A DNA stretch of 64,000 nt from Nitrospirota bacterium (GTDB taxonomy: Bacteria; Nitrospirota; Nitrospiria; Nitrospirales; Nitrospiraceae): the NCBI GenBank assembly GCA_040757595.1, contig JBFLWP010000004.1, positions 62,001-126,000 of the forward strand. The letters are read 5' to 3'. The position numbers and the translations under genes are program-made. Numbering within the stretch: the stretch's first letter is position 1; every line of letters starts with the position of its first letter. Of the stretch, positions 28,829 through 28,902 are shown in pieces. A model generated the notes under the pieces. It did not search any database. It was not told where the DNA came from and saw only the letters and a program-made list of their open reading frames with translations.

Positions 28829-28861
28829 AAAAAAAGAGCCCTGACCGCGCAGATCAGAGCT
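28829..28861 (-). terminator. Intrinsic terminator (attenuator) in the purA leader
   Basis: On the minus strand AGCTCTGATC, loop TGCGC, GGTCAGGGCT: a 10-bp stem with two G-T pairs, followed by CTC and seven T. It lies 6 nt after the predicted transcription start and 20 nt before the purA ATG. No minus-strand gene precedes it, so it should act on purA. Confidence 0.65.
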
Positions 28862-28873
28862 TCATGCGGCCCA

Positions 28874-28902
28874 ATCCTATGATGCCCCCCACCGCTTGTC
28901 AA
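28874..28902 (-). promoter_or_regulatory. Sigma-70 promoter of purA
   Basis: Minus strand: TTGACA (28902-28897), 17 nt, TAGGAT (28879-28874). The expected start is near 28867, giving a leader of about 59 nt. Confidence 0.7.

Follow-up and report, generated by a model that had tools for sequence, protein, structure and literature searches.

Purine genes are classic targets of riboswitches, and in purine riboswitches and other aptamer-based attenuators the leader of such a gene contains an intrinsic terminator. In the greA leader of E. coli (GraL), as described in PMC6829880, an intrinsic terminator lies near the promoter and gives terminated RNAs of 37-59 nt; about two thirds of the transcripts stop there and about 1/3 read through. 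According to the same paper, the sequence of the GraL hairpin itself matters and not its pairing alone, about 19 nt precede the stem, termination is imprecise, and the regulator is GreA, the product of the gene itself. For true greA leaders, an antiterminator is reported in PMC2965389. In this paper, Naville and Gautheret (2010) describe the rimP leader, which is located upstream of rimP-nusA-infB and is about 180 nt long in B. subtilis. It consists of nothing but a terminator: the stem contains a conserved motif, an antiterminator is not visible, and the distance to the gene varies. The authors argue that a protein acts on this stem, with NusA as the candidate. The main text of that paper has no mention of purA, purine, adenylosuccinate, gapA or glyceraldehyde, and in the portions of the literature searched, no such leader was found described for purA or for Nitrospira.

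The window, which is the whole stretch of 64,000 nucleotides that was analyzed, contains purA on its minus strand. The family name purA follows the initial annotation and is presumptive. That annotation had placed TTGACA-N17-TAGGAT, a 10-bp hairpin and seven T residues before the purA ATG, and reading of the minus strand confirmed all of these elements (Table 1). The hairpin consists of 10 pairs, including two G.U pairs, with a 5-nt loop, and begins about 6 nt past the predicted transcription start. Counted from this start, the leader is about 59 nt long, as had been annotated, and the RNA ending in the T tract is about 39 nt long. The claim that no minus-strand gene immediately precedes purA also held. 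The next long gene-like ORF on this strand is at 31222-32562, and tRNA-Ala and an ABC-F-like gene, both on the plus strand, lie in between; therefore, purA heads its own unit. A scan of 31 purA loci showed tRNA-Lys(TTT) on the downstream side and a divergent tRNA-Ala(GGC) on the upstream side in most of them, and tRNA-Lys(TTT) might have a transcript in common with purA. Repeat-like intergenic stretches containing variants of GACGAGTGACGAACGAC and GAGTGATGAATGCTGAGTGATGAG adjoin both tRNA genes (27400-27480 and 29060-29110), and repeat-rich inserts are located between the leader and purA in G114, G116 and G118.

Table 1. Positions of the purA leader elements and neighboring genes in the window, and of the gap leader elsewhere in the genome.
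Feature	Position	Strand	Remark
purA -35 element TTGACA	28902-28897	minus	same in 82/82 parsed relatives
purA -10 element TAGGAT	28879-28874	minus	17-nt spacer from -35
purA predicted transcription start	~28867	minus	predicted from spacing, 7 nt past -10
purA terminator stem, 5' arm AGCTCTGATC	28861-28852	minus	contains near-invariant core GCTCTG
purA terminator loop TGCGC	28851-28847	minus	varies between genera
purA terminator stem, 3' arm GGTCAGGGCT	28846-28837	minus	
Single C between purA stem and T tract	28836	minus	
T7 tract, purA intrinsic terminator	28835-28829	minus	T5-T8 in 82/82 parsed relatives
Spacer, T tract to purA ATG, 20 nt	28828-28809	minus	11-125 nt in relatives
purA, adenylosuccinate synthetase, 437 aa	28808-27495	minus	full-length homologues found; ATG at 28808
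tRNA-Lys(TTT), downstream neighbor of purA	27316-27391	minus	conserved
tRNA-Ala(GGC), divergent from purA	29128-29203	plus	conserved neighbor
gap leader (L292)	G000:C2:337809-337875	minus	further examples L293, L294

The purA leader resembles GraL in its shortness and in its promoter-near terminator, expression by read-through being reported for greA and predicted for purA. It differs from GraL in gene and phylum, and mostly has 2-6 nt on the 5' side of the stem against about 19 nt. With the rimP leader as described there, it shares a terminator without an antiterminator, a conserved stem and a variable distance to the gene; however, the rimP motif is GGGc...gCCC and that of purA is GCUCUG..., and the rimP leader is distributed far more widely among phyla and lineages. 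Like purine riboswitches, the element places a terminator ahead of a purine gene, but the RNA of about 39 nt shows neither an aptamer nor an alternative fold. A conserved terminator between promoter and start codon, a conserved stem and the absence of an alternative antiterminator fold were found at purA, and the best reading of the sequence is that its leader belongs with terminator-only attenuators of the rimP-leader and GraL kind.

None of the elements is strong evidence by itself. A scan of the 4 kb around the leader gave two promoter-like sites against 0.2 expected from shuffles, which is above chance, and terminator-like sites at chance level (2 against 2.1 expected). The stability of the folded 62-nt purA leader was not unusual compared with shuffled sequences (z -1.37). 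A pattern-based scan of both strands for a promoter followed by a terminator within 15 nt gave a single site in each of two sequences, 260 kb from the same contig and 140 kb from the relative G024, both at purA, and the combination was absent from all four Markov-simulated 260-kb strands. The combination of a promoter and an immediate terminator is thus far beyond chance. When the hairpin was omitted from the pattern (TTGACA, -10, T6), two places were found in the whole genome, purA and gap.

A search for purA in the order, assigned to Nitrospirales on the basis of one named relative, matched 106 genomes, and 91 upstream regions were examined after leaving out eight in which purA was partial or truncated at its start (G005, G013, G026, G074, G076, G077, G080 and G096) and seven of genus g18 (G058, G068, G078, G086, G090, G092 and G094). 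The automatic parse, defined as TTGACA, 17 or 18 nt, a -10 element, 6-21 nt, a hairpin and T5-T8, succeeded in 82/91 of these regions and in 1/910 shuffles; by family, the counts were 51/56 in f1, 2/3 in f2, 26/29 in f3 and 3/3 in f4. Among the 82 parsed relatives, the promoter spacer was 17 nt in 77 and 18 nt in five, and the distance from promoter to stem was 6-14 nt in 80 and 21 nt in two, whereas the distance from the T tract to the ATG varied from 11 to 125 nt. The position of the terminator is therefore linked to that of the promoter and not to translation. Most of the 80 distinct leaders have 2-6 nt on the 5' side of the stem and a predicted RNA of 36-41 nt; loop length varies from 3 to 10 nt. 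One of the 82 (L076, f1g7) has an unrelated GC-rich hairpin and a poor T tract.

A covariance model of promoter and hairpin (R1) was then used without filters to score the unparsed leaders. Four of these (L068, L095, L093 and L105) scored 33-50 bits, which is clear but weaker; three (L079, in its hairpin part, L078 and L074) scored weakly at 22-27 bits, and L062 and L114 gave no match. In the case of L062, purA lies near the start of a contig and a matching leader is found at the end of another contig of the same genome, the two being probably adjacent. At L114, purA is kept and a leader match is absent; in two f1g7 genomes, the promoter and purA are kept and the T tract is missing. R1 was also run on 198 genomes of the phylum. 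At E<=1e-5, it gave 52 matches in 51 genomes, all directly 5' of purA by coordinate comparison. G067 has two of them: its tandem partial copy of purA (G067:C10:299102-300215; first 143 residues, with a stop) retains a canonical leader of its own. Of the 56 order genomes drawn, 50 had a match, which corresponds to 50 of the 52 with an intact purA start; of the remaining six, two belong to f1g7, three yielded no purA in the search, and one has a truncated purA. Outside the order, only G221, of the same class, reached this threshold. These results indicate that the promoter-terminator layout is real, conserved through the order and tied to purA.

Among 80 named purA loci, a set that includes one close relative only, R1 recognized that of Nitrospira defluvii (L192, 73.2 bits) and nothing else convincing; the parser found the layout in 0/77 of the other named loci with enough upstream sequence, mostly from other phyla. 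A regulon of identical hairpins was rejected, as GCTCTGR...CAGRGC...T5 occurs once in the genome and R1 at E<=1e-5 found purA leaders only. Among purA upstream regions fetched from Nitrospirota outside the order, the layout was parsed in 5/39. Those of f5 and f6 have a CTCTG/CCCTG-type stem, and in f10 and f13 (two genomes) the same position is occupied by stems of unrelated sequence. Visual inspection of f8, f9 and f18 showed a similar stem at a greater distance from the promoter, and in many other Nitrospirota outside the order purA follows closely behind another gene. As the layout recurs although the stems are unrelated, selection seems to act on the arrangement itself.

For analysis of the stem, 57 of the 80 distinct leaders were aligned (A1), with near-duplicates and long or odd leaders omitted, the latter including L070, L087, L005, L098, L111, L117 and L076. 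The near-invariant parts were TTGACAA at -35, three bases of the -10 element (T, A and the final T), GCTCTG and the T tract; the promoter spacer and loop were saturated. In the 5' arm, columns G45, C48 and T49 were constant in 57/57 leaders, and C46, T47 and G50 in 55/57. Pairing was found in 94.6% of stem cells, a value favored by the choice of leaders in which a hairpin had already been parsed, and in at most 55% in a slid control; stronger evidence comes from the changes on both sides of the stem, which amounted to 33 cells, a count as high being reached in 0/500 shuffles. Covariation thus supports the stem. Counted by genus, pair 47-70 is U.G in 17, U-A in eight and C-G in one, and pair 49-68 is U-A in 22, U.G in five and C-G in none, and a single mutation would suffice to strengthen either wobble pair. 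The 5' arm (GCUCUG) has hardly changed at all, and its pairing partners wobble. This is a sign that the 5' arm is constrained beyond pairing, as for recognition, or that the strength of the stem is tuned, and the alignment fits both.

It had been stated initially that the leader is too short for most known aptamers, and this is borne out by the few nucleotides before the stem and the unconserved loop. No match at the gathering threshold was obtained for the purA leader in Rfam 15, and relaxing the threshold to E<=10 added nothing but miRNA and snoRNA entries, which were read as chance. A riboswitch was accordingly rejected. The comparison of related genomes that had been proposed as a check revealed no competing antiterminator: until the 3' arm is made, the nascent transcript has weak folds only (median -1.3 kcal/mol; below -4 in 5/80 leaders), and with so short a 5' part an upstream antiterminator was also discarded. 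The exceptions include genera g25 and g8, which have a longer 5' part or stem. In the longer leaders L070, L087 and L005 of these genera, the nascent 5' part folds on itself at -5.7 to -7.1 kcal/mol, and a lineage-specific antiterminator is possible there. A start codon is located before or at the stem base in 35/80 distinct leaders at no conserved position, and a leader-peptide attenuator was rejected since no short open reading frame or start codon position is conserved. The base after the T run is G in 51, C in 27 and A in two of 80 leaders, counted without a control set; a link of this base to GTP sensing is speculation.

Taken together, the purA leader is probably a promoter-proximal transcription attenuator that consists of a terminator only and allows read-through. 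RNA polymerase would start at about 28867 and make an RNA that is little more than a hairpin and a U7 tail. By default, a share of the complexes would stop at the T tract, and purA mRNA would be the product of read-through. In relatives with 16-20 nt between the T tract and the ATG, no full promoter fits in this space; therefore, purA is presumably read through the terminator. Since no aptamer, alternative fold or leader peptide fits, the fraction of read-through would be either fixed or set externally. In the latter case, which we favor, it may be set by an RNA polymerase-associated factor with a NusA-, NusG- or GreA-like role or by an RNA-binding protein that would act on the conserved 5' arm GCUCUG. 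Regulation of the attenuator by an outside factor has, in our estimate, a little less than an even chance. We infer from the sequence that termination occurs in the cell, that purA is expressed by read-through and that its level is regulated; a fixed, unregulated attenuator would fit the sequence equally well. Of the initial claim that purA is controlled by transcription attenuation in a short leader, attenuation is thus supported by the conserved promoter, terminator and spacing and by the covarying stem, and "controlled" is not, because fixed read-through accounts for the same features.

The hairpin may instead be a fixed attenuator, or a 5' stabilizing hairpin, that sets or protects the level of purA mRNA and conveys no signal. 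It is known that a hairpin close to the 5' end protects mRNAs, and the stem begins 2-6 nt from the predicted 5' end of a housekeeping gene whose leader has no room for a sensor. A mere stabilizer needs no T tract, yet all of the 82 parsed cases have one, and a fixed level seems to need less than the observed conservation of the 5' arm beyond pairing, although that constraint could come from a need for moderate stem strength rather than from recognition. This explanation is on balance somewhat unlikely. It is distinctly improbable that the RNA of about 39 nt is a product in its own right, acting in trans as a small RNA whose terminator is common to the purA leader. Many small RNAs have a hairpin followed by U7 as their minimal 3' module, and the element has this form and is single-copy. 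Nevertheless, no single-stranded seed is conserved, as both the 5' overhang and the loop vary; the element is attached to purA throughout the order, even at the partial purA copy of G067, and in two other families unrelated stems occupy the same place. An inverted repeat with a conserved core, 9-13 nt downstream of the -10 element in 76/82 relatives, could also be the DNA operator of a purA repressor, with the T tract incidental. However, the arms are asymmetric (CTCTG versus mostly CAGGG) and pair via G.U, which is possible in RNA only, and the variable loop and ever-present T5-T8 tract likewise make an operator very unlikely. A ligand-binding riboswitch or leader-peptide attenuator, which a purine gene might lead one to expect, is hardly credible given the lack of an Rfam match, the unconserved loop and 5' segment, and start codons that are nowhere conserved.

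The same layout as that of the purA attenuator, with a GCCGG...CCGGC stem, was found before gap (glyceraldehyde-3-phosphate dehydrogenase), which precedes a pgk-like gene, in the same genome, G063 and G097; gap, pgk and the trxA-like gene below were named by reading their translations. The layout at gap is patchy: 10/30 fetched f1 gap upstream regions parse, and in the remaining 20 a promoter-like start is mostly visible and a hairpin with a T tract is not. A promoter and T6, perhaps together with a short GC-rich hairpin, also precede a thioredoxin-like gene in L296 (G100:C155:6830-6892). Nitrospirota might have a general class of promoter-fused attenuators in which RNA polymerase just after escape is the sensor, with purA and gap, whose stems are unrelated, as the examples seen here; we consider this unlikely. 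Sensing would then proceed via polymerase-bound factors or nucleotide supply at the U tract. If this is true, the state of transcription, and not an RNA-borne sensor, would gate metabolic housekeeping genes.

Nitrospira-type bacteria are central to nitrification, and to our knowledge little is known about their gene regulation. With the purA leader, a purine gene has a well-defined cis element that extends through the order and has no room for a sensor, so that the regulation of a bare promoter-adjacent terminator can be posed as a question by itself. The natural alignment of purA leaders is ready for mutational tests, with gap as a second gene for comparison.
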